Shown here in pieces: positions 27,528-59,514 of a stretch of DNA of 64,000 bases (positions within the stretch are counted from its first letter, which is position 1; each line of letters starts with the position of its first letter). The DNA lies in the NCBI GenBank assembly GCA_023248995.1, contig JAHFDN010000001.1:62001-126000 (forward strand), read 5' to 3'. The stretch is from Candidatus Rokuibacteriota bacterium (GTDB taxonomy: Bacteria; Methylomirabilota; Methylomirabilia; Rokubacteriales; CSP1-6). The position numbers were made by a program, and so were the translations under genes. The notes beneath the pieces were generated by a model, which saw nothing but the letters and a program-made list of their open reading frames with translations, did not search any database and was not told the DNA's origin.

Positions 27528-28027
27528 TTGGCGGCGATGCTCCTCAGGTAATGCACGACGTCCCAGCGCTCCTCGGCGGACAGGGCTTCGCCGTAGGCGG
27601 GCATCACCGCTCCGCCGGTGCCGATGACGTGCTGGAGGTAGCCGTCGGTCCGCGCCTTCTGGATGGAGGGATGGGTGATGTCGGGAGGGGGGATGAACTT
27701 CGGCGAAACCAGCCCGTCTCCCTTCCCTCCGGCCCCGTGGCAGGGGGTGCAGTAGATCGCGAACAGAGCCTTGCCGCGCGCCACCGATTCGGGCGTGGCC
27801 TTGACGGGGTTCGGTCGCCGTGCGGCGAGATCCCGCGCTTCGCGCGGCGGCGTCAACTCGCCCCCGGAGCGCGGCAGGGTGCCGGCCGGCATCTCGAAGG
27901 TCCGCTCGCCGGGAACGATCTTGGGGGTACTGGTCATGTTGTCGGTCCAGCGCAGGACAATGACGCCTCCCATCAATCCCCCCGCCGCGAGGATCGTCAG
28001 GAGGACCAGGCCGAAGACGTACTTCAC
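27524..28027 (-). CDS. actE: Alternative Complex III subunit ActE (monoheme cytochrome c)
   Basis: A 167-residue protein anchored by an N-terminal hydrophobic helix (VFGLVLLTILAAGG) with a periplasmic cytochrome c domain. The single heme site is CTPCH, and the distal Met ligand is probably in GGAVMPAYGEAL. I chose the GTG at 28027, which overlaps the actD stop by four bases (GTGA). An ATG 12 codons upstream would add an odd seven-glycine run and overlap actD more deeply. It carries electrons out of the complex. Confidence 0.92.
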   Translation of the reverse strand: MKYVFGLVLLTILAAGGLMGGVIVLRWTDNMTSTPKIVPGERTFEMPAGTLPRSGGELTPPREARDLAARRPNPVKATPESVARGKALFAIYCTPCHGAGGKGDGLVSPKFIPPPDITHPSIQKARTDGYLQHVIGTGGAVMPAYGEALSAEERWDVVHYLRSIAAK

Positions 28028-28530
28028 CGCCGCACCTCCTCCGCCCCCGCCTCCTGAAGGCATGTGCGGACGGCGGCGACCAGGTCCGGGGAACAGGTGA
28101 CCGCGATCCCGAAGCGATCCACCGTGAAGCGCGGGTCATAGGTGGGCGAACGGCGGAGCGACGGGAGCTTCCCCAGCACCAGGATCGCCAGCAGTGAGGA
28201 CAGGCCTCCCAGGAGAATCGTCAGCTCGAAGGCGATGATCACGAAGGGCGGGATCGAGACGATGGGCTTCGCGCCGGTGACCAGGCCCCACTTCAGCGAG
28301 GTCCAGATCGGGAGGGCGAATCCCGTCACGGTCCCCGTGAGCCCACCGATGAGCGTGAACAAGCGGACGGGACTCACCGGTCGGCCTTCCTCCAACGCCG
28401 CCTCGATCTCTTCCACCGGGACCGGCAGATAGACGGAAAAGTCGGTGAACCCCCGAGCCCGTAAGTCCCGGATCGCCCTGACGGTCGAATCCACGTGGGC
28501 AAAGATACCGAGGATGCAGGCGGCGGCCAT
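28024..28530 (-). CDS. actD: Alternative Complex III subunit ActD
   Basis: A 168-residue DUF3341 protein with a cytoplasmic N-terminal domain (LGIFAHVDSTVRAIRDLRARGF) and two transmembrane helices in the middle. The first is about residues 57-78 and the second about 95-117. This is the usual ActD plan. It has no redox motif and is thought to be structural. The ATG overlaps the actC stop by one base. Confidence 0.92.
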   Translation of the reverse strand: MAAACILGIFAHVDSTVRAIRDLRARGFTDFSVYLPVPVEEIEAALEEGRPVSPVRLFTLIGGLTGTVTGFALPIWTSLKWGLVTGAKPIVSIPPFVIIAFELTILLGGLSSLLAILVLGKLPSLRRSPTYDPRFTVDRFGIAVTCSPDLVAAVRTCLQEAGAEEVRR

Positions 28531-29864
28531 CAGTGGTGAGGGTCCTTCAGGGGATGTGGGAGGGTTTCTTTGACCTCGACGATCGAGACGGAGGGCATCA
28601 CCTTGATGAACCCGAGGAAGAGGATGAAGAACCAGGCGAAGCTACCGATCACGATGAGGGTATCGGTCAGCGTTGGGTAGTAGATCCCCCACGTGTACGG
28701 GTAGAAGTCATGCCCGAGACCGGGGACGATGATGTTGAAGCGCTCGAACCACATCCCGATCAACACGAGAATCGACACGACGTACAGAGTGGGGGGATGA
28801 ATCCGAGCGCGCCGGGAGAAAAGGACGAGGGGCACCAGGCTGTTACAGAAGTACTGGAGCCAGAACGCCCAGGCGTAGTTCCGTGTGGCCTTCCAGAAGA
28901 GCGAGGCCCGCTCGAAGTGATCGCCGCTGTACCACGCGGTGAACGCCTCGCAGACGTAGAAGTACGTGAGGACGAGGCTGGTGACGAGGATCAGCTTCGC
29001 GATGGCGTCCAGGTGCCGGTTGGTGATGTAGGCGTAAAGGTTGAACAGCGGCCGCATCGGGATGATCAGGACCAGGACCATGGCGAAGCCCGAAAAGATC
29101 GCGCCGTCCACGAAGAACGGGGCGAACAGCGTCGAATGCCACCCGGGGACGAGCGCCATCGCAAAGTCCCAGGAGACCACGCTGTGTACCGACAGCACCA
29201 GCGGTGTGGCCAAGGCCGCCAAGAGCCCGTAGGCCCGTCGGTAGTGGCGCCACTGTCGATCCGTCCCCTCCCAGCCGAGGGCGAGAACACCGTAGATCTT
29301 CCGCTTCCAGCCGGTCGAGGCGTCGCGGATGGCGGCAATGTCCGGGAGCAACCCCACGGAGAAGAAGACCACGCTGATCGTCAGGTAGGTGGAGATGGCG
29401 AAGACATCCCAGACGAGCGGCGATCGGAAGTTCGGCCAGAGGTAGCGCTGGTTCGGGTACGGGAGCAGCCAGTAGGCGAACCACATGCGGCCGGCGTGGA
29501 TGAGGGGGAAGAGCCCGGCGGTCATGACCGCGAACACCGTCATCGCTTCGGCGCCGCGATAAATCGAGGTACGCCAGCGAGCCCGGAACAGGTACAGGAT
29601 CGCCGAGATGAGGGTCCCGGCGTGACCGATGCCGATCCAGAATACGAAGGACGTGATGTACATCGCCCAGTTCTGGGGCGTCCGCTTTCCCGCAGCCCCC
29701 ATGCCGATGTAGATCTGCCACGTCCACGCCAGGATCCCCGCGGTCAGGATCAGCCCGACGATCGACATCCAGCCGAAGTAGGCTGGTGAGGGCGTCCAGA
29801 GGGTGCCGATGACGTCCCGGTTGACGTCGGCGTAGGTCGGCTGGTGGGCGTCGTCCCGCCTCAT
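28530..29864 (-). CDS. actC: Alternative Complex III subunit ActC (NrfD-like, quinol-binding)
   Basis: A 444-residue integral membrane protein with about ten helices, of the NrfD/PsrC superfamily. The N-terminal TPSPAYFGWMSIVGL, the FWIGIGHAGTLISAIL helix and SVVSWDFAMALVPGWHSTLFAPFF are ActC signatures. The conserved His and Asp in these segments are associated with quinol binding and proton transfer. The ATG overlaps the actB stop by four bases. Confidence 0.95.
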   Translation of the reverse strand: MRRDDAHQPTYADVNRDVIGTLWTPSPAYFGWMSIVGLILTAGILAWTWQIYIGMGAAGKRTPQNWAMYITSFVFWIGIGHAGTLISAILYLFRARWRTSIYRGAEAMTVFAVMTAGLFPLIHAGRMWFAYWLLPYPNQRYLWPNFRSPLVWDVFAISTYLTISVVFFSVGLLPDIAAIRDASTGWKRKIYGVLALGWEGTDRQWRHYRRAYGLLAALATPLVLSVHSVVSWDFAMALVPGWHSTLFAPFFVDGAIFSGFAMVLVLIIPMRPLFNLYAYITNRHLDAIAKLILVTSLVLTYFYVCEAFTAWYSGDHFERASLFWKATRNYAWAFWLQYFCNSLVPLVLFSRRARIHPPTLYVVSILVLIGMWFERFNIIVPGLGHDFYPYTWGIYYPTLTDTLIVIGSFAWFFILFLGFIKVMPSVSIVEVKETLPHPLKDPHH

Positions 29865-32812
29865 GTCTTGCCGTGGTCGCGGGTGACCTTCTTGAGGTAG
29901 GTAATCGCGGGCCGGGTCCCGAGCTCGTCCAGCACATGGTAGCCGCGCGGCGACCGAGACACCCTGGACGCCCGGCTCGACGGGTCCTTCAGGTTGCCGA
30001 AGACGATCGCCTGTGTGGGACAGGTCTGCTGGCAGGCGGTCAGGATATCGCCGTCCGTCACCTTGCGCCCCTCATCGCGGGCACGGTCCTTCCCCCCGAT
30101 AATCCGCTGGATGCACATCGTGCACTTCTCCATGACCCCCAACTGGCGGACCGTGACGTCCGGGTTGAGCTGGAGAGGCAGCGGATCGGGGAAGGCGTAG
30201 CTGCTGGACGCCGGAGAGCCGTAATCCCACCAGTTGAACCGCCGCACGTGGTAGGGACAGTTGTTGTTGCAGTAGCGCGTGCCGACGCAGCGATTGTAGA
30301 CCTGAGCGTTGAGCCCCTCCTGCGTATGGTAGCTGGCGAAGACCGGGCAGACCGGCTCGCACGGGGCGACCTCGCAGTGCTGGCAGAGCATAGGCAGGAA
30401 GAGCGTGTCGGGATGGTGTGGGGGGCCCTCCTGCCAGCGCTCGATGCGGAGCCAGTGCATGTCGCGCCCGTAGGCGACCTGTTCCTTTCCCACCACCGGA
30501 ACGTTGTTCTCCGCCTTGCACGCGATCACGCAGGCCTGGCATCCGATGCACGAGTCCACGTCGATCGTCATTCCCCAGCGGTACTCGGGATACTTGAGAT
30601 CGGGATACATGCTGGGGTGGCTGGCCTTCTCGGGGACCGCACCCCGGAGCTCCAGCTCGCGGGCGGCGGTCAACCCCACGTGCTGCGCGAGTTCCCGTTC
30701 ATCCTGGTTGGCCGTCGCCTGGGGAATGGCCAGGGGACGCCGGCCCCCGGTCTTGGTCAGCGTGAGCCTGACGGACAGGAAGGCGAGACCTCCCGGCGTC
30801 GGTGCTTGAGGCAGGAGGGCCAGGGGATTGGCGCCTCGATCTTTCGCGTAGCGGCCGTACCTGGTGTGCCCTTGGCCGATGGGAATGGCAACGGCATCCG
30901 GGTGGAGCGACTCGGAGATGTAGGCCGGTAGCTCGATCGCGCCGTGGGGGGAAGCGATCCTCACCAGATCGCCCTGGCGGACCTGGAGCGTCCTGGCGCG
31001 CTCGGCGGGAATTTCCGCCCAGGAGTCCCACGCCACCTGAGTCATGCTGTCGGGGGCTTCCTGGAGCCAGGGCTTGTTGGCGCCGCGCCCGTCGTAGAAG
31101 CGCAATGAGGGGTACGTGAGGAGCGTCGGCCCCTGGGCGCCGTCCTCGGTCGCCGTTCGCTTGCTCGCCATGGCGACCGGCTGCGCCTTCACCGGGACCG
31201 TCGGCACCCCCCTCCAGACGCCACCCCGCCGGAGCGCTTCTTCCCAGAACTGGTCGAAGGGGGTGCCGGGGGCGACCTCCCTGGCGATCCCCCGCCATTG
31301 CTCCTTCAAGTAATCCTGGAAGGTCGCCCAGCGAAGTGGGCCTTTCCCCTCAGCCGAGCGCAGCGCCTGGCGGCCCACGGCGATGAGGACGTCGCCGACG
31401 GCTCTCGAGCCGAAGACCGGGGCCATCGTCGGCTGCATCAGCCCAACGACGCCTTCGCGCGGCGAGAAATCACCCCAGGACTCGAGCGGATGGAGATCGG
31501 GCAGGATGAGGTGAGCGTGCTCGCTGGTCTCGTCCGGCTGGTTCGCGAAGCTCACGACCAGCGGCACTTTCTTGAGGGCATCGGCGAAGGCGGTCGTGGC
31601 GGGCAGGGTGAAGACCGGGTTCGCGTGGACCACGAGGAGGACCTCGATCTCCCCTCTCCTCATGCTCTCGGTCAGGGCCAGCACGTCGGCGTACGAGCTC
31701 GCCTTGCCGAAGGCCGAGTCCGGGCCGAAGCGGACCGTTCGCCCCACGTTGCCCGTTGCGTAGTTCAAGAGGTGGATTGCCACCTGGACGTCCACCGCGT
31801 CGATCCCCGTGACCGCCACCCCGCCGCCGACGGCGAGCCCGGGCTTGGCCTTGGCGAGGGCGCGGGCCACGCGCTTGATGGTTTCCGCGGGGACGCCCGA
31901 CTGGCGGGCGATCGCCCCGACGTCCGGCGCGCCGATCGCGCCTCTGAGCGCCGCCAGGTCCACGCCCGGGGCCTGGAGCCCTTCGTCGAGGATCACCTTG
32001 AGGAGCGCCACGGCGAGGAGCCTCTCGGTTCCCGGCGTATTCCGGATCCACTCATCAGCGTTGGCGGCGGTCATCGAGAGCCGCGGCTCCACATGGATCG
32101 AGGTGCCCGCCCTGCCGTGCGCCAGCGCGTGCATCCGGGCGAAGCCGCGGGCGTGGGCCACCGGCGACAGCCAGGTCTCCAGGAAGTCCGCGCCGAAGGA
32201 GAGGACGACATTCGCGTCCTCGAACGCGTAGTCGGGGATCGCGTCGCGGCCGAAGACCACGCGACTTGCGGCGCGAACCGCCTCGTAGTTGAAGGGCTCG
32301 TAGGCGACCCGGCGGCGCGCCCCCAGGGCCCCGCCCCACGCGTCCATCAGCCGGCCGAGGCTCCCGCTCTCGAGCTGGGTCAGGACCGCGATCCGGCGGC
32401 CCTGTTTGTCCTTGATGAGCGCGGCCAGGCGCTCGGCGAGGAATTTCTCGGCTTCTTCCCAGGCGACGGGCTTGGGGGCGCCCGACGCGTCGCGCCGGAG
32501 CGGCCCCCGCACCCGGTCCGGGTTGTAAAGCCCCTGGAGACCGGCCTGGCCGCGGATGCACAACGTCCCGCGATTCACCGGGTGGTCGGGATTGCCCTCG
32601 AGCTTGACGATGCGTCCTTCGCGGTTGCGTGCGACGACGCCGCAACCCGCCGGGCATTCGCGACAGACCGAGGAGAACCACGAGGCGACACCAGGCACGA
32701 GGTTATCGGGCGGGATCACCAGAGGCAGGATCTGCTCCGGGCTTCGGGCGCACCCGGTCATCGCCGCCGCGGTCGAGGCGCCGACGATCTTAAAGAAGTC
32801 CCGCCGCTTCAT
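29861..32812 (-). CDS. actB: Alternative Complex III subunit ActB (molybdopterin-type domain fused to iron-sulfur domain)
   Basis: A 983-residue exported subunit. It opens with a Tat signal, MKRRDFFKIVG, and an AMTGC sequence at 17-21 that could act as a lipobox. A molybdopterin oxidoreductase-like domain spans about 40-690, with C50, C53, C57 and C85 in the positions of a [4Fe-4S] site. The C-terminal domain (about 740-983) has four ferredoxin-type cysteine groups: CIGCQACVIAC, CQHCEVAPCEPVC, CVGTRYCNNNC, and CTMC with CQQTC. It transfers electrons between quinol site and cytochromes. Related ActB proteins usually hold no molybdenum. It is the second gene of the operon. Confidence 0.96.
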   Translation of the reverse strand: MKRRDFFKIVGASTAAAMTGCARSPEQILPLVIPPDNLVPGVASWFSSVCRECPAGCGVVARNREGRIVKLEGNPDHPVNRGTLCIRGQAGLQGLYNPDRVRGPLRRDASGAPKPVAWEEAEKFLAERLAALIKDKQGRRIAVLTQLESGSLGRLMDAWGGALGARRRVAYEPFNYEAVRAASRVVFGRDAIPDYAFEDANVVLSFGADFLETWLSPVAHARGFARMHALAHGRAGTSIHVEPRLSMTAANADEWIRNTPGTERLLAVALLKVILDEGLQAPGVDLAALRGAIGAPDVGAIARQSGVPAETIKRVARALAKAKPGLAVGGGVAVTGIDAVDVQVAIHLLNYATGNVGRTVRFGPDSAFGKASSYADVLALTESMRRGEIEVLLVVHANPVFTLPATTAFADALKKVPLVVSFANQPDETSEHAHLILPDLHPLESWGDFSPREGVVGLMQPTMAPVFGSRAVGDVLIAVGRQALRSAEGKGPLRWATFQDYLKEQWRGIAREVAPGTPFDQFWEEALRRGGVWRGVPTVPVKAQPVAMASKRTATEDGAQGPTLLTYPSLRFYDGRGANKPWLQEAPDSMTQVAWDSWAEIPAERARTLQVRQGDLVRIASPHGAIELPAYISESLHPDAVAIPIGQGHTRYGRYAKDRGANPLALLPQAPTPGGLAFLSVRLTLTKTGGRRPLAIPQATANQDERELAQHVGLTAARELELRGAVPEKASHPSMYPDLKYPEYRWGMTIDVDSCIGCQACVIACKAENNVPVVGKEQVAYGRDMHWLRIERWQEGPPHHPDTLFLPMLCQHCEVAPCEPVCPVFASYHTQEGLNAQVYNRCVGTRYCNNNCPYHVRRFNWWDYGSPASSSYAFPDPLPLQLNPDVTVRQLGVMEKCTMCIQRIIGGKDRARDEGRKVTDGDILTACQQTCPTQAIVFGNLKDPSSRASRVSRSPRGYHVLDELGTRPAITYLKKVTRDHGKT

Positions 32813-42113: not shown

Positions 42114-42995
42114 TCACCCCGGCGTTGAGCCCGGTGGCGCGAGCTGGATCAGGCTCGGCGTGGCCCGCCAGTACCCTTTGCCGCGGGCGATCACATCCAG
42201 GTGCGGCGTCCCCCAGTCCTCGATCAGCGCGGACGCGGCGTTCCAGCGGACGCGGCGATCCACCCCCTTGATGTAGCCCCGACACACGTCGCACGCCTCG
42301 ATCAGGTAGCCTTCCTCCTGCTCCTCGGCGGCCAAGCGCGTGAGCGTCCTGGCGTCGCGGTTATCGCAGAACGGGCACCGGAGTCGCCCGATGCTCCAAC
42401 GGCCCCCGCAGAGCGCGCATGAGAGCCAGCGCTTGCCGTCGTCAGCGAGGTCGGCGAACGCGGGTGGGGCCGAGCAGAACGGGCAGGCGCCTACGTCCCA
42501 GAGGTCGGGCGAGAACAGGGGCTGGACCCGCCCGAAGTACGCCTCGAGCGGAGGACGGAGCCCGACGTAGGTGATGAAGGAGAGGAGGTCGGCGGAGATT
42601 CCCAGCGCCTCGCCCTCCCGGCGCCTCCCCTCGCCGCTCAACCCTGGCAGGAGCGATTCGGGAGCGAGCCGCCCCTCATCCCACGCCTCCGCGAAGCGGC
42701 TCACGGCCTGTGCCTCCTCCTCGCCCAGGGCGGCGAGTTCCTGCAGAACCGGCGCCAGGAGCGGCTCGAGCGAGTCCCGGTCGAACGCGGGGGGCGAGCT
42801 GACGATGACCGCGACGCCGGCGTGCCAACGCCTCCGGCATTCGTCCTGGTCCAGACCAAGGACGGGGATACCAGGCGGCGCCCAGCGCCCCCACGCGTCG
42901 AGGACGACGCCAAAGAGATGGAGCGAATCCTGGAAGGCGGGTCTCCGCGTGAGGAGGTCTTCCCACTCGGCCGCAAGGGTTGCGTGCTGAGGCAT
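42114..42995 (-). CDS. fdhE: Formate dehydrogenase accessory protein FdhE
   Basis: A 293-residue cytoplasmic protein. The C-terminal half carries four CxxC pairs, CPFC, CALC, CPFC and CDVC, which bind iron in rubredoxin-like sites of FdhE. FdhE helps mature formate dehydrogenase before Tat export. The ATG at 42995 is nine bases after the fdhD stop. It is the last gene of the aox-fdhD-fdhE group. Confidence 0.92.
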   Translation of the reverse strand: MPQHATLAAEWEDLLTRRPAFQDSLHLFGVVLDAWGRWAPPGIPVLGLDQDECRRRWHAGVAVIVSSPPAFDRDSLEPLLAPVLQELAALGEEEAQAVSRFAEAWDEGRLAPESLLPGLSGEGRRREGEALGISADLLSFITYVGLRPPLEAYFGRVQPLFSPDLWDVGACPFCSAPPAFADLADDGKRWLSCALCGGRWSIGRLRCPFCDNRDARTLTRLAAEEQEEGYLIEACDVCRGYIKGVDRRVRWNAASALIEDWGTPHLDVIARGKGYWRATPSLIQLAPPGSTPG

Positions 42996-43004
42996 GGGCG
43001 GGAC

Positions 43005-43760
43005 TCAGAGCAGGCTGACGTCCACCGCGTCGCCCGCGTAGAGGTTGAGGCTGTCGGACCGCACGTACCCGACGATCGTGACGCCGAGCTGCTCGGCGAG
43101 GCTGACAGCCATCTCGGTCGGAGAAGTCCGGGAGGCGATCAGCGGCACGCCCATGCGCACGGCCTTGAGCAGCATCTCGGAGGAGATCCGTCCCGTGGAC
43201 AGGAGGATCCGGTCGGTCGTCGGCACCTCCTTGAGCAGGGCTTCGCCCTTCACCTTGTCCACCGCGTTGTGGCGCCCGACGTCCTCGGCGACGATGAGCA
43301 GCCGATCTCCGTCGGCCAGCGCGGCGCCGTGGATCCCCCGGGACGCCCGATAGTTCACGCCCGCGGCGAACAGCTCGCGCATCCGGTCGGACAGCTGCTG
43401 GGGGCGAACCTTGAGCGCCGACCGGATCCGGGGAAAGAGGCGGGGGTCGATGCGGAACGTGATGCCGCCCCCGCACCCCGACGTGAGAATCCGCTCCGTG
43501 GGAAGCTCCACCTCGCGCATCAGGGTCACATCCGCCCTACCGTCCACTTCCGAGACCTCGAGCCGTCGGATGTCGTCGAGCGACCCGATAACTTTCTCCA
43601 GCCAGAGGTAGCCGACCACCAAACAGTCGAGCTTGAGGGGGGAGCACAGGAGGGTGATGAACTTTTTCCCGTTCACGTGGACGACGAGCGGCTGCTCGCG
43701 CACGACCTCGCCCTTGACCTCCTGGGCGCGACCCCCCTTTAGCTGGATGAAGCTCCGCAT
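43005..43760 (-). CDS. fdhD: FdhD, sulfurtransferase for formate dehydrogenase maturation
   Basis: A 251-residue protein that passes sulfur to the molybdenum cofactor of formate dehydrogenase. Family segments are EQPLVVHVNGK, ILTSGCGGGITF and VAEDVGRHNAVDKV, then LLSTGRISSEML. Enterobacterial FdhD has a CxxC pair in the flexible loop; here only C96 is present in TSGCGGG. The ATG at 43760 matches the usual start; an upstream extension overlaps the di-iron gene. It follows the AOX-like gene by 32 bases. Confidence 0.94.
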   Translation of the reverse strand: MRSFIQLKGGRAQEVKGEVVREQPLVVHVNGKKFITLLCSPLKLDCLVVGYLWLEKVIGSLDDIRRLEVSEVDGRADVTLMREVELPTERILTSGCGGGITFRIDPRLFPRIRSALKVRPQQLSDRMRELFAAGVNYRASRGIHGAALADGDRLLIVAEDVGRHNAVDKVKGEALLKEVPTTDRILLSTGRISSEMLLKAVRMGVPLIASRTSPTEMAVSLAEQLGVTIVGYVRSDSLNLYAGDAVDVSLL

Positions 43761-43792
43761 GGGCTCCCCGGTCCGGATATTGTAACAGACGG

Positions 43793-44449
43793 TCAGCGGA
43801 AGCGCGCCTCTTCGACCCGGGCTAGGCTCTCGAGCTTGTGAACCCGCTCGTCGTACCCGATCTGACGGAAGAGATCCGCCAGCGACCCAAAGCGGCCGTA
43901 GTCGTCGGCGAACATGCTCTCGAAGGGCTCGGCCTCGAGTGCGGGATTCTCGGCCACGTACTCCATGTACTCGTGCTCGGCGTGATCCTCGAAGTGGGCG
44001 TTCAAGAGATAGCTCCGCGCCGGGCGGATGACATAGAGGAGCCACGAGATGTGGTAGTAGATGAAGGCGATCACCTGGGGGAGGAGCCGGTACCAGGGGA
44101 AGTTTTCGTGGATGTGTTTTCTGTCCGTGAGCTCTTCCAGGATCAAGAGGTGCCACTGCTCGTTGTCCTGCTGGATCCGGCTCTCTTTGACCCGGTCGAA
44201 GATGCGTCGCGCCAAGTCGGGGTAGGCATGGGTATGGGTGATCGCAATGTAGGCGACGTGCTCCCACGATTGGTAAGGCACTCGGGCAATAACCTCGAGA
44301 ACCTTGAACTTGCTGAGGGTCTTACGACGGCCGTACAGCAGATCCATCCCGACGAAGAGGAGGCGGGCGAGCAGACCGTAGCGCATCCGGGGGGAGGCCA
44401 GAGTCTTCTCCTGCTCTAGCTTCAGCCGGTCTGAGGTCAACCGTTCCAT
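43793..44449 (-). CDS. Alternative oxidase/plastid terminal oxidase-like di-iron protein
   Basis: A 218-residue protein with the ligand set of AOX/PTOX quinol oxidases. E63 is in YQSWEHVAY, E97 and H100 in DNEQWHLL, E154 and H156 in FEDHAEHEYMEY, and E201 and H204 in GYDERVHKLE. Amphipathic helices between about 120 and 150 (VIAFIYYHISWLLYVIRP) suit monotopic membrane binding. Such enzymes oxidise quinol with oxygen and without proton pumping. The gene lies after the terminator of the fdhA-fdhB-nrfD operon and before fdhD and fdhE. The fit is by motif reading; overall similarity needs a search. Another di-iron carboxylate enzyme remains possible. Confidence 0.75.
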   Translation of the reverse strand: MERLTSDRLKLEQEKTLASPRMRYGLLARLLFVGMDLLYGRRKTLSKFKVLEVIARVPYQSWEHVAYIAITHTHAYPDLARRIFDRVKESRIQQDNEQWHLLILEELTDRKHIHENFPWYRLLPQVIAFIYYHISWLLYVIRPARSYLLNAHFEDHAEHEYMEYVAENPALEAEPFESMFADDYGRFGSLADLFRQIGYDERVHKLESLARVEEARFR

Positions 44450-44457
44450 CTAGCCGC

Positions 44458-44487
44458 AAAAAGGAAGAGGCCCCCACGGGGCCTCTT
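44458..44487 (-). terminator. Intrinsic terminator after the fdhA-fdhB-nrfD operon
   Basis: On the minus strand AAGAGGCCCC, a GTG loop and GGGGCCTCTT form a ten-base-pair perfect stem, followed by CC and five T. It lies between nrfD and the AOX-like gene, only nine bases before the latter's ATG. Readthrough or a control device is possible. Confidence 0.9.
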
Positions 44488-44511
44488 CAGCATTCAGCGC
44501 GCCGCTTCGAG

Positions 44512-45447
44512 TCAGGAGAGGACGACCTGCCCCGCGGCCATGATCACGTGCTTGACCAGCAAGCCACCCAGCAGGATCAGGACGGCGGAAATGGCCACGA
44601 GCCCCGGGCTCCCGCGCTGGCGCCGGATCACCTCCAGAACCAGTGGTACGATCGATCCCACGACCACAGCCCCGAGCCAGAAGGTCATACTGTACGGGCC
44701 GCTGACGAGCAACGCCAGTGACTGCGCCGCACCCTCCGCGCCGGACATCTCGACCGTCAGGAGAAATAGGGCCAGGGTCACGACCTGCAGCAACAGGGCG
44801 GGGATTGTGACCCACCGCATCTGGTTGAGGCTCCCTCCTGCTTCTCGGCCGAGGAACGACAGGATCAGGGCGATCGCCGCGGCCCCCGAGGTCGCGCCGA
44901 CTGCCAGGAACAGGGCGCCCAGGAAGCGTCCGTTCTGGAAGAGGGGGCGGGCGGTTGCGCCGAGGAGCACGCCGGGGTAGGCCGCGAGGAAGAAGGCGAA
45001 GAATCCCCCGAGGACCCCTGCGGTGCTGCGGAGCGCCGAGAGGTCGCGCCCCGGCCCCGCATCCTCCAAAAATACCGACAGTGCCGCCAGCAAGGTGAAC
45101 AGGCCGAATCCCGTGAGGGCCCAGGCCCCCATGTTCATCGGCGAAAACGGCTTGATATGGATCGCCCCCAGGTTGATCGCATCCATGCCGATCGTGGTGT
45201 CGGGCTTGGCCACCATGAGCATGTGGAGGAAGCGGCTCGGTATCCCGAGGTCAACGGTCAGGAGGATCGGCGCGGGGATCAAGGCGATGAGGGCCAGGTA
45301 GTAGCCGACCCTGACCACTTCACGGTTCCGCTTGCCGCCCACCAGATGGGCGATCGTGGCGATCACAAACGCCCCGCCGGCGAGCCCGCCGAGGAAGAAA
45401 TAGAAGTCGATCAGAAAGGGCCAGTCCGCGCTCTTGAGGAGGGGCAT
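44512..45447 (-). CDS. NrfD/PsrC-family membrane subunit of formate dehydrogenase
   Basis: A 311-residue membrane protein with eight or nine helices. The opening SADWPFLIDFYFFLGGLAGGAF and the LTVDLGIPSRFLHMLM segment are typical of NrfD/PsrC quinone-reactive subunits. It would anchor FdhA-FdhB and pass electrons to the quinone pool. Classical formate dehydrogenase-N uses a cytochrome b subunit instead. No heme ligands of that type are seen here. The ATG at 45447 has GGAGT six bases upstream and is three bases past the fdhB stop. Confidence 0.92.
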   Translation of the reverse strand: MPLLKSADWPFLIDFYFFLGGLAGGAFVIATIAHLVGGKRNREVVRVGYYLALIALIPAPILLTVDLGIPSRFLHMLMVAKPDTTIGMDAINLGAIHIKPFSPMNMGAWALTGFGLFTLLAALSVFLEDAGPGRDLSALRSTAGVLGGFFAFFLAAYPGVLLGATARPLFQNGRFLGALFLAVGATSGAAAIALILSFLGREAGGSLNQMRWVTIPALLLQVVTLALFLLTVEMSGAEGAAQSLALLVSGPYSMTFWLGAVVVGSIVPLVLEVIRRQRGSPGLVAISAVLILLGGLLVKHVIMAAGQVVLS

Positions 45448-45450
45448 CGG

Positions 45451-46218
45451 CTACTCCTTTCCGCCCCGCTCCCTGAAGGCCACCAGGGCGCCGACCCCCA
45501 CCAGCAGGGCCGAGCCGATGGACAGGAGCGAGTCCACGAAGACGTTGTTCTGCGGGAGCCGAGGCTTCTCCGGCAGGCCGTACACGGACGGCCGGTCCAG
45601 GAGCAGGAAGAACGCGTTGAGGCCGCCCAGGGGACCGTTCTGGTCCTCGCCGTAGAGCTGGGCGTTCTTGAAGCCCATCTTCTTGAGATCCTCGACGCGC
45701 TTCCGGGCCCTGGCGGCCAGCTCGTCCCTGAAGCCGAAACTGATGGACTGGGTGGGACAGGCTTTGGCGCAGGCCGGGCCCAGGCCGTTGTGGAGCCGGT
45801 CGTTGCAGAACGTGCACTTGTTGGCGCGACCGGTGTCGTGGTTGAACGCCACCACGCCGAAGGGGCAGGCCGAGACGCAGTACCGGCAGCCGTTACAGAT
45901 GTCCTGGTTGATGTTGACGGTGCCGTACTGGGTCCGGTAGATGGCGCCGGTGGGACAGGCCTCGAGGCAGCCCGCCTGGGCGCAGTGTTTGCAGACGTCG
46001 GACATCAGGTGCCACATGAGGGCACCTTTGTCATCCTTCTTTTCGATGAAGCGCACGAGGCGGTAGCTCTTGTCGGTGAAGTGGGCATGGTTCTGGTATG
46101 TTCCGGTCCACTCCGGCTCCTCTGCCGGGAGCTGGTTCCACTGCTTGCAGGCAACCTGGCAGGCGCGACAGCCGATGCACAGGGAGACATCCGTGAACAT
46201 CGCGACCGTGCGGGCCAT
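45451..46218 (-). CDS. fdhB: Iron-sulfur subunit of formate dehydrogenase
   Basis: A 255-residue four-cluster ferredoxin protein. The cysteine groups are CIGCRACQVAC (from C14), CKHCAQAGCLEAC, CNGCRYCVSAC, and CTFC with CAKAC. A C-terminal hydrophobic helix (LLSIGSALLVGVGALVAF) is like the anchor of FdnH. It relays electrons from FdhA to the NrfD-type subunit on the outer face of the membrane. It is two bases after fdhA. It has no signal of its own and would be exported with FdhA. Confidence 0.95.
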   Translation of the reverse strand: MARTVAMFTDVSLCIGCRACQVACKQWNQLPAEEPEWTGTYQNHAHFTDKSYRLVRFIEKKDDKGALMWHLMSDVCKHCAQAGCLEACPTGAIYRTQYGTVNINQDICNGCRYCVSACPFGVVAFNHDTGRANKCTFCNDRLHNGLGPACAKACPTQSISFGFRDELAARARKRVEDLKKMGFKNAQLYGEDQNGPLGGLNAFFLLLDRPSVYGLPEKPRLPQNNVFVDSLLSIGSALLVGVGALVAFRERGGKE

Positions 46219-46220
46219 GG

Positions 46221-49200
46221 CTATGCCACCCCCTTCCTGACGTTACAGAGGAGCGCTTTGGACTCCTGAATGAACGTCGTGGGGTCACCCAGGCTCGCCA
46301 CGAGGTCGTTGGTGATGTCGCCGCGGGAGGAGGGCATGACGCCCTGGTACCCCCAGTGCCAAGGGATCCCGACCTGGTAGACCTTCTTGCCATTGATGAT
46401 GAACGGCTGGATCCGTTCAGTGACCATGGCGCGGACCTTGATCTTGCTCCGCGGGGTCTCCACGGTGATCATGTCGCCGTTGTTGATCCCCAGCTCCTTG
46501 GCCATCTCCGGGCCGATCTCAGCGAAGTGGCCGAAGAAGAGCTCGGAGAGCCAGGGCACGTGGCGCGACATGCCGGCCGCGTGGTGCTCCGTGAGCCGGT
46601 AGGTGGTCAAGACGTACGGGTACTTGTCGGGACCGCCGAGTCGGTTCAGATCGCCGATGTCCCATACCTTGGCGACCGGGTTGTGGTCAACCTTGGACAG
46701 GAGGTTCTTGGTCGGCGACTCGTATGGCTCGTAGTGCTCCGGGAAGGGCCCATCCAGTATGGACGCGAAGAACTGCCCCTTGCCGTGGGCGTTCATGATG
46801 AACGCGTCAATGCCGCTGATCCCCTTGAGCGGCCCCTCCTTTGCCCGCGGCGCGTCCGGGGCCATGACTAGGCCGAAGTCGGGCACATCCAGCCCAATCC
46901 ACTTCTTCTGCTCCGCATCCCACCAGATGAGCTTCTTCTTCTCGCTCCAGGGCTTCCCCTTCGGGTCGGCGGAGGCGCGGTTATAGAGGATGCGGCGGTT
47001 GGCCGGCCAGGCGAAGCCCCAGCCGTGGGCCAGGTAGTCACCGTCCTTTGGCCGCTCGCGACGGGCGGCCAGGTTCTTCCCCTCCTCCGGGTAGATGCCG
47101 CCGTAGATCCAGTTGCCGCCTGCCGTCAGGCCGTCGTCCCTGAGCTGGATGAAGCTCTTGAGGTGGTCCCCCTTCTTGAAAAGGACCTTGCCGTCCTTGT
47201 CGGTGATGTCGTCGGTCGCGTACCCGTTGATCTCCTTCAGCACCAGCTCCATCTTGGGCTCCTTCTTGGGCCCCTGGGGCTGGTAGTCCCAGACGAGATC
47301 GATGATCGGCCGATCCTTCTTGGCCTTCGAATCCTTGTAGAGCTCCTTTACACGGTTCCCCACGTCCACGATGAAGGCCGCGTCAGACCGGGCGTCGCCC
47401 GGCGGGTCAACGGCTTTCGTGTGCCACTGAGCCAGCCTCATCGTGTTGGTGATTGAGCCGTCCTTCTCGGCGGCGGGAGCGCCGGGGATAAAGAAAACCT
47501 CCGCCTTGGAGGACTTGGGGTCGATCCCCGGCTCCTTCCAGACTGCGGCGGTGTCGGTCTCGAAGAGATCCACCACCACCATCCACTCCAGGTTCCTGAG
47601 GGCCATTCGGGCCATCTTGGCGTTGGGGCTGTCCACGGCCGGGTTCTGGCCCATCACGATGAACCCCTTGACCTGCTTTTTCAGCATCCCCACCAGGAAG
47701 TGCTGATGGGAATACGCATCCGCCTTCTCCCGCTTGGGGAGATAGTCGTACGCGTAGTCGCTCTCCTTGCTTGCCGCGGGTCCCCACCAGGCCTTGAGCT
47801 GGCTGACGACAAACTTGGGATTGTTGACCCAGAAACCCCCCTTGGGCGTCGTCTTCTCCAGGTAATCCATGAGGGTCGGGTGCGGCGCCTGCAAGGGCAT
47901 CGGCGGGTAGCCCGGGAGCATGTGGTAGAGAGTTCCGAAGTCGGTCGCCCCCTGGACGTTGGAGTGTCCGCGAAGGGCGACCACGCCCCCGCCGGGCCGT
48001 CCGATGTTCCCCAGAATGAGCTGGAGCATGCAGAGCGACCGGATCTGCTGGACACCGTTGGTGGACTGGTTGAGCTGAAGGGCGTAGGAGATCGTGGAAG
48101 TCTTGTCCGGCCCTGAAGCTGAACAGAAAATATCCGCCACCTTCAGGAACAGGTCCTTGGGAATCCCGCACACCCGCTCCACCATCTCGGGGGTGTAGCG
48201 GCTGTAGTGGCGCCGCAGGAGCTGGAAGACGCAGCTCGGGTCGCGGAGCGTCGGATCCTGCTTGGGGTAGCCATCCGCGTCAAGCTGGAACTTCCAGGTG
48301 GTCTGGTCGTAGCTCCGCTTGGCCCGGTCGTAGCCCGTGAAAAGGCCGTTGAAGTCGGTCGGCGTCCTGAACTGCGGGTCCACCAGGAACGGGGCGTTCG
48401 TGTAGTTCACCACGTAATCGTGGAAGTACTTCTTGCTCTCAATGGCGTAGCGGATCAGCCCGCCGAAGTAGACGGTGTTAGTCCCGGAGCGGATGGGGAC
48501 CCAGATATCGGCCGTGGCCGAAGTGCGAGTGAAGCGCGGATCCACGTGGATGATCTTGGCCCCTCGCTCCTTGGCTTTCATCACCCACTTGTAGCTCACC
48601 GGGTGACATTCGGCCCAGTTCGAAGTGGGCATGATCACGTCGGCGTTGATGACGTCGATCAGGTTCGTGGTCATGGCCCCTCGGCCGAAGGTCGCGCCCA
48701 GGGCCGGCACCGTTGCCGAGTGGCAGACACGAGCTGAGTTCTCCACGTTGACGAGGCCCATGCCGCGGGCCAGCTTGGCGATGAGGTAGTTCTCCTCGTT
48801 GTCGAGGACGGAGGAGCCGAGCCAGGCGATCCCCTCGCAGCGGTTGACCGTGACTTCCTTGTCGCCCACCTTTGCCTTTTCGACGAAGGTCTCGTCCCGG
48901 CTCTTTTTGACCCGCTGGGCGATCTGCTCCATCATCCAGTCAAGAGGCTTCTCCTCCCACTTGTCGCTCCCGGGGGCGCGGTACATGCACTTCGTCCAGC
49001 GCCGCTCGTTGATCGACACCTGGTAGGTAGACGAGCCCTTCGGGCAGAGTGCGCCCTCGGTGTGGGGCGTGTTCGGGTCGCCCTCGATATCTATAATCTT
49101 CCCGTCCTTGACGTAGATCAGCTGGGCGCACCCGACCGCGCAGTAAGGACAGACTCCGGGAAACGCCTTGGCTTCCTTGATCCGGATTGTGGTGGCGAAG

Positions 49201-49298
49201 GATTCAACGGCGCTCAGGTCGAGCGTGCGCCCTCCGACCGCCACTCCGCCCGCCGTCGCAACGCCGTACCTCAGGAAATCACGACGTGAAAGGGCCAT
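46221..49298 (-). CDS. fdhA: Formate dehydrogenase catalytic subunit, cysteine type
   Basis: A 1025-residue molybdenum or tungsten bis-MGD enzyme. It begins with a Tat signal (SRRDFLRYG), then C50, C53, C57 and C85 for the proximal [4Fe-4S] cluster. The active site is RVCHSATVPALG, with C192 where Escherichia coli FdnG has selenocysteine, followed by the conserved His and GRGAM. Total length matches formate dehydrogenase-N. The ATG at 49298 has GGAGG nine bases upstream. It heads fdhA-fdhB-nrfD under the promoter at 49376-49404 and faces the periplasm. Sequence alone cannot decide between molybdenum and tungsten. Confidence 0.95.
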   Translation of the reverse strand: MALSRRDFLRYGVATAGGVAVGGRTLDLSAVESFATTIRIKEAKAFPGVCPYCAVGCAQLIYVKDGKIIDIEGDPNTPHTEGALCPKGSSTYQVSINERRWTKCMYRAPGSDKWEEKPLDWMMEQIAQRVKKSRDETFVEKAKVGDKEVTVNRCEGIAWLGSSVLDNEENYLIAKLARGMGLVNVENSARVCHSATVPALGATFGRGAMTTNLIDVINADVIMPTSNWAECHPVSYKWVMKAKERGAKIIHVDPRFTRTSATADIWVPIRSGTNTVYFGGLIRYAIESKKYFHDYVVNYTNAPFLVDPQFRTPTDFNGLFTGYDRAKRSYDQTTWKFQLDADGYPKQDPTLRDPSCVFQLLRRHYSRYTPEMVERVCGIPKDLFLKVADIFCSASGPDKTSTISYALQLNQSTNGVQQIRSLCMLQLILGNIGRPGGGVVALRGHSNVQGATDFGTLYHMLPGYPPMPLQAPHPTLMDYLEKTTPKGGFWVNNPKFVVSQLKAWWGPAASKESDYAYDYLPKREKADAYSHQHFLVGMLKKQVKGFIVMGQNPAVDSPNAKMARMALRNLEWMVVVDLFETDTAAVWKEPGIDPKSSKAEVFFIPGAPAAEKDGSITNTMRLAQWHTKAVDPPGDARSDAAFIVDVGNRVKELYKDSKAKKDRPIIDLVWDYQPQGPKKEPKMELVLKEINGYATDDITDKDGKVLFKKGDHLKSFIQLRDDGLTAGGNWIYGGIYPEEGKNLAARRERPKDGDYLAHGWGFAWPANRRILYNRASADPKGKPWSEKKKLIWWDAEQKKWIGLDVPDFGLVMAPDAPRAKEGPLKGISGIDAFIMNAHGKGQFFASILDGPFPEHYEPYESPTKNLLSKVDHNPVAKVWDIGDLNRLGGPDKYPYVLTTYRLTEHHAAGMSRHVPWLSELFFGHFAEIGPEMAKELGINNGDMITVETPRSKIKVRAMVTERIQPFIINGKKVYQVGIPWHWGYQGVMPSSRGDITNDLVASLGDPTTFIQESKALLCNVRKGVA

Positions 49299-49414: not shown

Positions 49415-49693
49415 TCAGCCCTTCTCGGGCGGCTCAAAGGTCTTGCGATACTCCTCGAAGCATACTTGGAGTACCTCGCCAGCCTCTCGGGTCTTCCCGT
49501 GCGCAAGAAAGTCGACGATCCGGCGCCGCGTTTCGTGCTCCAGGATGATTCCCCCCGACACGGGGTCGTACAGGCGGCAAAGCTGCAGGAGGGTCCGATT
49601 CACCGCCTGAGGGTCCGGGAACTGACTCCGGGCTTCGTCGAACAGCCTCCCGACAATTTCTGGAAGGTCCCGCCCCTCACGGCGCCTTGCCAT
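49415..49693 (-). CDS. Small protein of unknown function downstream of truA
   Basis: A 92-residue, probably all-helical, soluble protein (LPEIVGRLFDEARSQF, TLLQLCRLYDPVSGG, HETRRRIVDFLAHGK, GEVLQVCFEEYRKTF). I do not recognise a family. Its ATG overlaps the truA end by 17 bases and it is followed by the fdhA promoter. The overlap is larger than is usual, but the composition looks coding, with many Glu, Arg and Leu residues. It could belong to the truA transcript or be read into fdhA; function is unknown. Confidence 0.6.
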   Translation of the reverse strand: MARRREGRDLPEIVGRLFDEARSQFPDPQAVNRTLLQLCRLYDPVSGGIILEHETRRRIVDFLAHGKTREAGEVLQVCFEEYRKTFEPPEKG

Positions 49694-58829: not shown

Positions 58830-59468
58830 TCAATCCTCGAAGCCGATGTCTCGCGCTGGCTCCTTCAAAGGGGGAGCCGGTTCCCTGGCCTTGCCGAGCT
58901 TCTCGTCGACCTTCCGAGTCCTGCTCTTCGACCCCCTGGCGATGGCCACCTTTCCGGTCCGCACCAACTCCTGGATGCCGAAGGGGCGCAGGAGCTCGAT
59001 GATCGCGGTCATCTTCGACTCTTCCCCCGTGGCCTCCAGCGTATAGGTCACCGGGGTCACGTCGACCACCTTCGCCCTGAAAATGTCCGCGATCCGTAGG
59101 ATCTCGGCTCGGAAGGTCCGCTCGGCATTGACCTTGACCAGTATCATCTCGCGCTCGACGTGGTTCTCTTCCGAGAGATCGGTGACCTTGATGACGTCAA
59201 TGAGTTTGTGCAGCTGCTTGATCACCTGCTCGATGACAAACTCGTCCCCGCGGACCACGAGCGTCATCCGCGACACGGTGGGATCGAGGGTCTCCCCCAC
59301 CGACAGGCTCTCGATATTGTAGCCGCGGGCGCTGAAGAGCCCGGCGACGCGCGACAGCACGCCGAACCGGTTCTCTACCAGCACCGCGATCGTGTGCTTT
59401 CTCGGCTCGCTTCCGTTCTGCAACTTCCTGATCCTTTCTTCGTTCGGGCGCGGGCTTGGCCCGCGCAT
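58830..59468 (-). CDS. ilvN: Acetolactate synthase small (regulatory) subunit
   Basis: A 212-residue subunit with an N-terminal ACT domain ([30 protein letters not shown]) and a second ACT-like C-terminal domain ([21 protein letters not shown]). It confers valine feedback sensitivity. The ATG at 59468 has its purine-rich stretch too close for a normal ribosome site, so a TTG about 15 codons in may be the real start; the first 20 residues are not conserved. A charged tail of about 35 residues is extra. Confidence 0.93.
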
Positions 59469-59485
59469 CCCTCCTGGGGGAGGCC

Positions 59486-59514
59486 TCGGAAGGGGCCGTC
59501 GAGGCCCCCTCCGA
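59486..59514 (-). other. Strong hairpin between ilvB and ilvN
   Basis: Twelve-base arms (59486-59497 and 59503-59514) with one mismatch and a five-base loop lie just after the ilvB stop (59517). No T run follows on the minus strand, so it is not an intrinsic terminator. It could adjust the ratio of large to small subunit. Confidence 0.6.

Follow-up and report, generated by a model that had tools for sequence, protein, structure and literature searches.

In Escherichia coli, FDH-O, a formate dehydrogenase (FDH) of the FDH-N/-O type, feeds the quinol oxidases bd and bo. Another kind of oxygen reductase is represented by the alternative oxidase (AOX) and the plastoquinol terminal oxidase (PTOX), which in a survey of December 2025 were found in Pseudomonadota only and in Cyanobacteriota only, respectively (PMC7618691), and the di-iron ligands of the AOX of Trypanosoma brucei (TAO) are E123, E162, H165, E213, E266 and H269 (PMC9246349). 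Here, we analyzed a window of 64,000 nucleotides from a soil bacterium of Candidatus Rokuibacteriota (assembly GCA_023248995.1, contig JAHFDN010000001.1, positions 62,001 to 126,000 of the forward strand), in which a preliminary description had placed an AOX-like gene (43793-44449, minus strand; 218 amino acids) within an FDH locus and had proposed a dedicated two-part formate:oxygen pathway. Our analysis indicates that the gene product is probably a general quinol oxidase that relieves the quinone pool or consumes oxygen. It would represent a third branch, divergent from the two known ones, within the AOX/PTOX superfamily and would have been recruited into the FDH locus, where it is optional.

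The assignment of the product to the AOX/PTOX superfamily, as had been suggested earlier, was borne out by profile, fold and ligands, which all agreed. The protein scored 33.5 bits against Pfam AOX (PF01786; curated cut-off 22.7), and the structure model obtained by AlphaFold2 (AF2) from an alignment of 75 homologues had a mean predicted local distance difference test score (pLDDT) of 94.6 and a predicted template modeling score (pTM) of 0.91. The model has the four-helix-bundle fold of AOX, and a Foldseek search against the PDB returned T. brucei AOX at all of ranks 1-13 (probability 1.00, E 7e-5 to 9e-4, TMq 0.64-0.73), with the next non-AOX match at E 0.12, and annotated PTOX was among the top fold matches in a viral structure library. 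Sequence searches of the PDB with the single protein or with a profile recovered no AOX, so that the fold search alone succeeded. The six-ligand set, E52, E97, H100, E154, E201 and H204, was invariant across the 75 family members and PTOX/AOX, along with Y161, a Tyr of the catalytic type. The residues invariant in all rows of the alignment of this branch, PTOX and one phage AOX (L51, E52, A55, P58, N96, E97, H100, L101, P143, E154, A157, Y161, E201 and H204) include a match to the six ligands of TAO (PMC9246349) and support an AOX-type di-iron site. Among the ligands named in the preliminary description, E97/H100, E154 and E201/H204 held, whereas E63 had to be replaced by E52. E63 is invariant within the branch and adjoins the invariant W62, but it lies inside a five-residue insert, QSWEH, which is missing from PTOX and AOX; judging from the alignment, it is E52 that serves as the ligand in helix 2. 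Taken together, the product is an AOX/PTOX-superfamily oxidase by all the computational tests available, with a predicted quinol:oxygen activity.

To the cyanobacterial PTOX and the phage AOX, the identity was only ~22-31%, and the oxidase did not fall inside the cyanobacterial PTOX clade. In the tree, the branch formed a clade of its own apart from cyanobacterial and phage PTOX and phage AOX (support 95/93), the AOX type being represented by a single row on a very long branch. The relatives detected by tblastn in the phage collection were cyanophage genes annotated as PTOX and one unannotated AOX-type gene only, and those in the plasmid collection were from Nostoc and Acaryochloris only, mostly annotated as alternative oxidase. 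A scan of species genomes revealed 185 stretches encoding relatives, of which the best 80 were kept. These 80 shared an identity of 59-87% and were distributed over Methylomirabilota, Nitrospirota (including Nitrospira moscoviensis and Ca. Manganitrophus), Omnitrophota, Elusimicrobiota, Actinomycetota (including Mycolicibacter, Pseudonocardia and Granulicoccus), Myxococcota, Bdellovibrionota, Planctomycetota, Kiritimatiellota and Chlorobiota. In the open-access literature, subscription papers being outside the search, we found no paper on this oxidase branch and none on point linking alternative oxidase with bacterial FDH, Omnitrophota or Nitrospira. Since it occurs without the FDH genes in about ten bacterial phyla, the branch appears to be a common oxidase that has mostly escaped notice, and not a module specialized in burning formate.

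In the window, the genes around the oxidase gene are all on the minus strand, and all six genes of the locus were located in the order and at the coordinates given by the preliminary description. They begin with fdhA (46221-49298), encoding an FDH-N-type catalytic subunit (TIGR01553, 1171 bits against a cut-off of 814), in which Cys replaces selenocysteine in a frame without TGA and the N-terminus resembles a twin-arginine translocation signal, and continue with fdhB (45451-46218), encoding a ferredoxin-type iron-sulfur subunit (TIGR01582, 221 bits; Fer4 domains), and nrfD (44512-45447), encoding the membrane subunit of FDH that interacts with quinone (Pfam NrfD, 111.7 bits). The oxidase gene is followed by fdhD (43005-43760, with its ATG at 43760), encoding the FDH accessory sulfurtransferase (TIGR00129, 179 bits against a cut-off of 140.9), and by a gene for an FdhE-like FDH accessory protein (42114-42995), which matched TIGR01562 at 44 bits, below the cut-off, and Pfam FdhE_C and FdhE_central weakly. 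A small conserved protein of 92 amino acids without a family match above cut-off is encoded 5' of fdhA (49415-49693), as it is 5' of most of the Rokubacterial fdhA genes examined. Both FdhA of the Cys type, as in the window, and FdhA with selenocysteine (in-frame TGA) occur in Rokubacteria, and one genome has the two operons in tandem (G021; locus L107, contig G021:C103).

Among the 80 kept loci, FDH genes were found beside the oxidase gene in Rokubacterial loci only, and in some Rokubacteria only, and none of the loci outside Rokubacteria had an adjoining fdhD or fdhE or a close fdhA. FDH linkage as a rule for the whole family was accordingly rejected; the conserved neighborhood that had been looked for, including the co-occurrence of AOX and fdhD, was present in those Rokubacteria, in two gene orders, and absent from the kept loci of other phyla. 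Both orders occupy one chromosomal slot, namely leuCDB-asd-truA-island-ccsB-hemA, and both are accompanied by the small open reading frame (ORF). The type II order, which is that of the window, is small ORF-fdhA-fdhB-nrfD-terminator-AOX-fdhD-fdhE (G006, G091 and G015), and the type I order is fdhD-AOX-small ORF-fdhA-fdhB-nrfD-fdhE (G003 and G008). Because the AOX genes of both types form one moderately supported clade (86/81), the association with FDH may have arisen once and then been rearranged. A 4742-bp contig of the same assembly as the window (G000:C9; L106) carries a second set of part of fdhA, fdhB, nrfD, AOX and part of fdhD, within which it breaks off; its dS to G091 is 0.17, so that it probably stems from a related strain and was binned in, and it was not accepted as a paralogous copy.

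A terminator had been claimed between nrfD and AOX, and a hairpin resembling an intrinsic terminator with a T-run was indeed located there (44464-44488, minus strand), 14 nt ahead of the AOX start codon. Read from 44488 to 44464, it consists of a GC-rich stem of 11 bp and then CTTTTT, and it is present in all type II loci; four related loci have conserved it, although bases of the stem have changed. When the gap between nrfD and AOX was folded as RNA, it gave a clear hairpin with a z-score that was unremarkable over the whole stretch, so that the argument for a terminator rests on its conservation. Its position suggests that AOX-fdhD-fdhE could be expressed at a lower level than, or separately from, fdhA-fdhB-nrfD. 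In the type I order, AOX lies so close to its neighbors that co-transcription is very likely: it overlaps fdhD or almost touches it, and only ~13 nt separate it from the gene that follows.

The oxidase could be a specific partner of FDH-NrfD, the two enzymes making up a dedicated module that burns formate with a low yield, for example for scavenging oxygen that would harm FDH. The adjacency of AOX and fdhD, which survives the rearrangement, and the probable type I transcript are consistent with such a module, as is the finding that, in a genome without fdh genes in the slot (G017; L108, 176-3502), AOX is still followed by a redox island, which encodes an HdrA/MvhD-like polyferredoxin and a TorD-type chaperone. 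Gain and loss at the locus were, however, found to part the oxidase from FDH. In many relatives, the type I locus shows no trace of AOX (L119-L123, L126 and L129), and FDH is kept in three genomes in which AOX has decayed, being an internally deleted remnant in G024, a C-terminal remnant of 31 residues in which R replaces the ligand E201 in G021, and a copy that lacks its start codon as well as 16 residues, including Y161, in G075. Conversely, AOX directly follows truA in the same slot in G017, which has no close FdhA anywhere, and, in the Methylomirabilis-type genus, AOX is present without a close FdhA in 12 genomes and FdhA without AOX in two. Thus, each was lost without the other within Methylomirabilota, and the test of co-conservation, by which they should be always together or lost together, failed, indicating that they are separable, though kept together in several lineages. 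The intact Rokubacterial AOX copies showed a dN/dS of 0.09-0.20, which represents purifying selection. AOX is an optional member of the Rokubacterial FDH locus and not an obligate partner of FDH. Given also the absence of adjoining fdh genes in the kept loci of other phyla and the conserved type II terminator, the dedicated formate:oxygen pathway initially proposed was not supported, and we regard such a module as unlikely.

Another explanation is that the family belongs to iron homeostasis, under the control of Fur or oxidizing iron or the quinol pool upon a change in iron supply, its position in the FDH locus being secondary. This would agree with the Fur-AOX-FTR1 and Fur-AOX-ABC-transporter (FbpABC-like) arrays of the Methylomirabilis group and the FTR1-AOX-Fur array of one Omnitrophota contig (L057, 5388-7669; L087, 7488-9711; L062, 8349-13618; L074, 27-1858). 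Such arrays were, however, confined to these two phyla, and genes of this kind are missing from the Rokubacterial FDH slot and most other loci, which makes the explanation quite improbable; beyond these cases and a few families at chance level, no general conserved neighbors of AOX were found among the kept loci of other phyla. Still less probable is a di-iron protein that descends from AOX but is not an oxidase, such as a COQ7-like quinone hydroxylase or some other oxygenase. The low identity to known AOX/PTOX, the helix-2 insert with its invariant W62-E63 and the weak Pfam score could be taken in its favor, but the protein retains every AOX ligand and the Tyr of the catalytic type, and the COQ7 structures ranked far below AOX in the fold search (E 0.42-0.51 vs. 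7e-5).

A general quinol oxidase, which we consider to be the best explanation, would act as a monotopic di-iron quinol:oxygen oxidoreductase that draws its electrons from the quinone pool, with menaquinol as the most likely donor, and, as expected from the enzyme family, would reduce oxygen to water with four electrons at the di-iron site on the cytoplasmic face without proton pumping. As the co-location suggests, electrons from formate could enter the pool through the NrfD subunit of the periplasmic Cys-type FDH and leave it through the oxidase. Menaquinol was inferred as the donor because the genome has two MqnA/D-type homologues, which point to menaquinone synthesis by the futalosine route. 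Several points weigh against this explanation: the assignment of menaquinone depends on one protein family, of which the NCBIfam equivalogs did not fire; the chemistry could be altered by the QSWEH insert, which lies in the ligand helix, and by the shortening of the helix 3-4 region; the neighbors in the Methylomirabilis group and the one Omnitrophota contig are iron-uptake genes, not respiratory genes; and the oxidase function is a computational prediction. It is possible, though rather doubtful, that this third major branch, found in non-photosynthetic and apparently menaquinone-using phyla, is a menaquinol oxidase that in some Rokubacteria has been wired to a periplasmic FDH as a formate:oxygen pathway that conserves no energy.

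Regarding other routes of quinol oxidation, the cluster of Alternative Complex III, whose presence had been assumed in the preliminary description, was located in the window (ActB, 29861-32812; ActC, 28530-29864; ActD, 28024-28530). We make no claim that AOX is the sole oxygen reductase of the genome; the assembly has no COX1, but this may reflect an assembly gap, contig C42 beginning ~2.5 kb downstream of the position of COX1 in G091. The end of contig C18 truncates a CydA-like gene (G000:C18:89-811) that diverges from classical cytochrome bd, and most Rokubacteria have comparable long frames resembling CydA. DNA comparison with G091 also revealed dispersed repeats of ~70 bases in the window (~59443-59514) and in many other contigs, which matched on both strands and are palindrome-like.

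The larger point of this study is the overlooked third branch; the link to FDH is real but local. The presence of a coherent branch of AOX/PTOX in some ten additional phyla, among which Omnitrophota and Elusimicrobiota are often regarded as anaerobic, would extend the range over which oxygen reductases that do not pump protons are known. It would also suggest a menaquinol-using form and bear on how and when AOX/PTOX enzymes arose, touching the evolutionary conclusions that were drawn from their restricted distribution (PMC7618691). The FDH locus offers one concrete candidate electron donor for the oxidase, and the carriage of the branch by Nitrospira moscoviensis and by strains of Mycolicibacter, Pseudonocardia and Granulicoccus makes it testable in named isolates.

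Among known systems, the PTOX of cyanobacteria, plastids and cyanophages is the closest by sequence, sharing the motifs LExIARVPY, NExxHLL, ExHAxxxY and DExxH. It differs in that the identity is only ~30%, that the present branch has a five-residue insert with an invariant W-E after ARVPY and lacks the loop of ~20 residues that precedes the last helix in PTOX, that the hosts are non-photosynthetic and apparently use menaquinone, and that the branch forms a separate clade. With AOX, as represented by TAO and the proteobacterial enzymes, the branch shares the fold, the four Glu and two His ligands and the Tyr, whereas the identity is 16-20% and known AOX oxidizes ubiquinol, in contrast to the menaquinol we infer for this branch. 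The arrangement as a whole resembles that of FDH-N/-O with quinol oxidases, in which a periplasmic molybdenum-containing FDH reduces quinone and oxygen oxidizes the quinol; the membrane subunit here is, however, of the NrfD type and not a cytochrome b, and the neighboring oxidase, unlike the bd and bo oxidases that FDH-O feeds in E. coli, is of the AOX type and not proton-motive.

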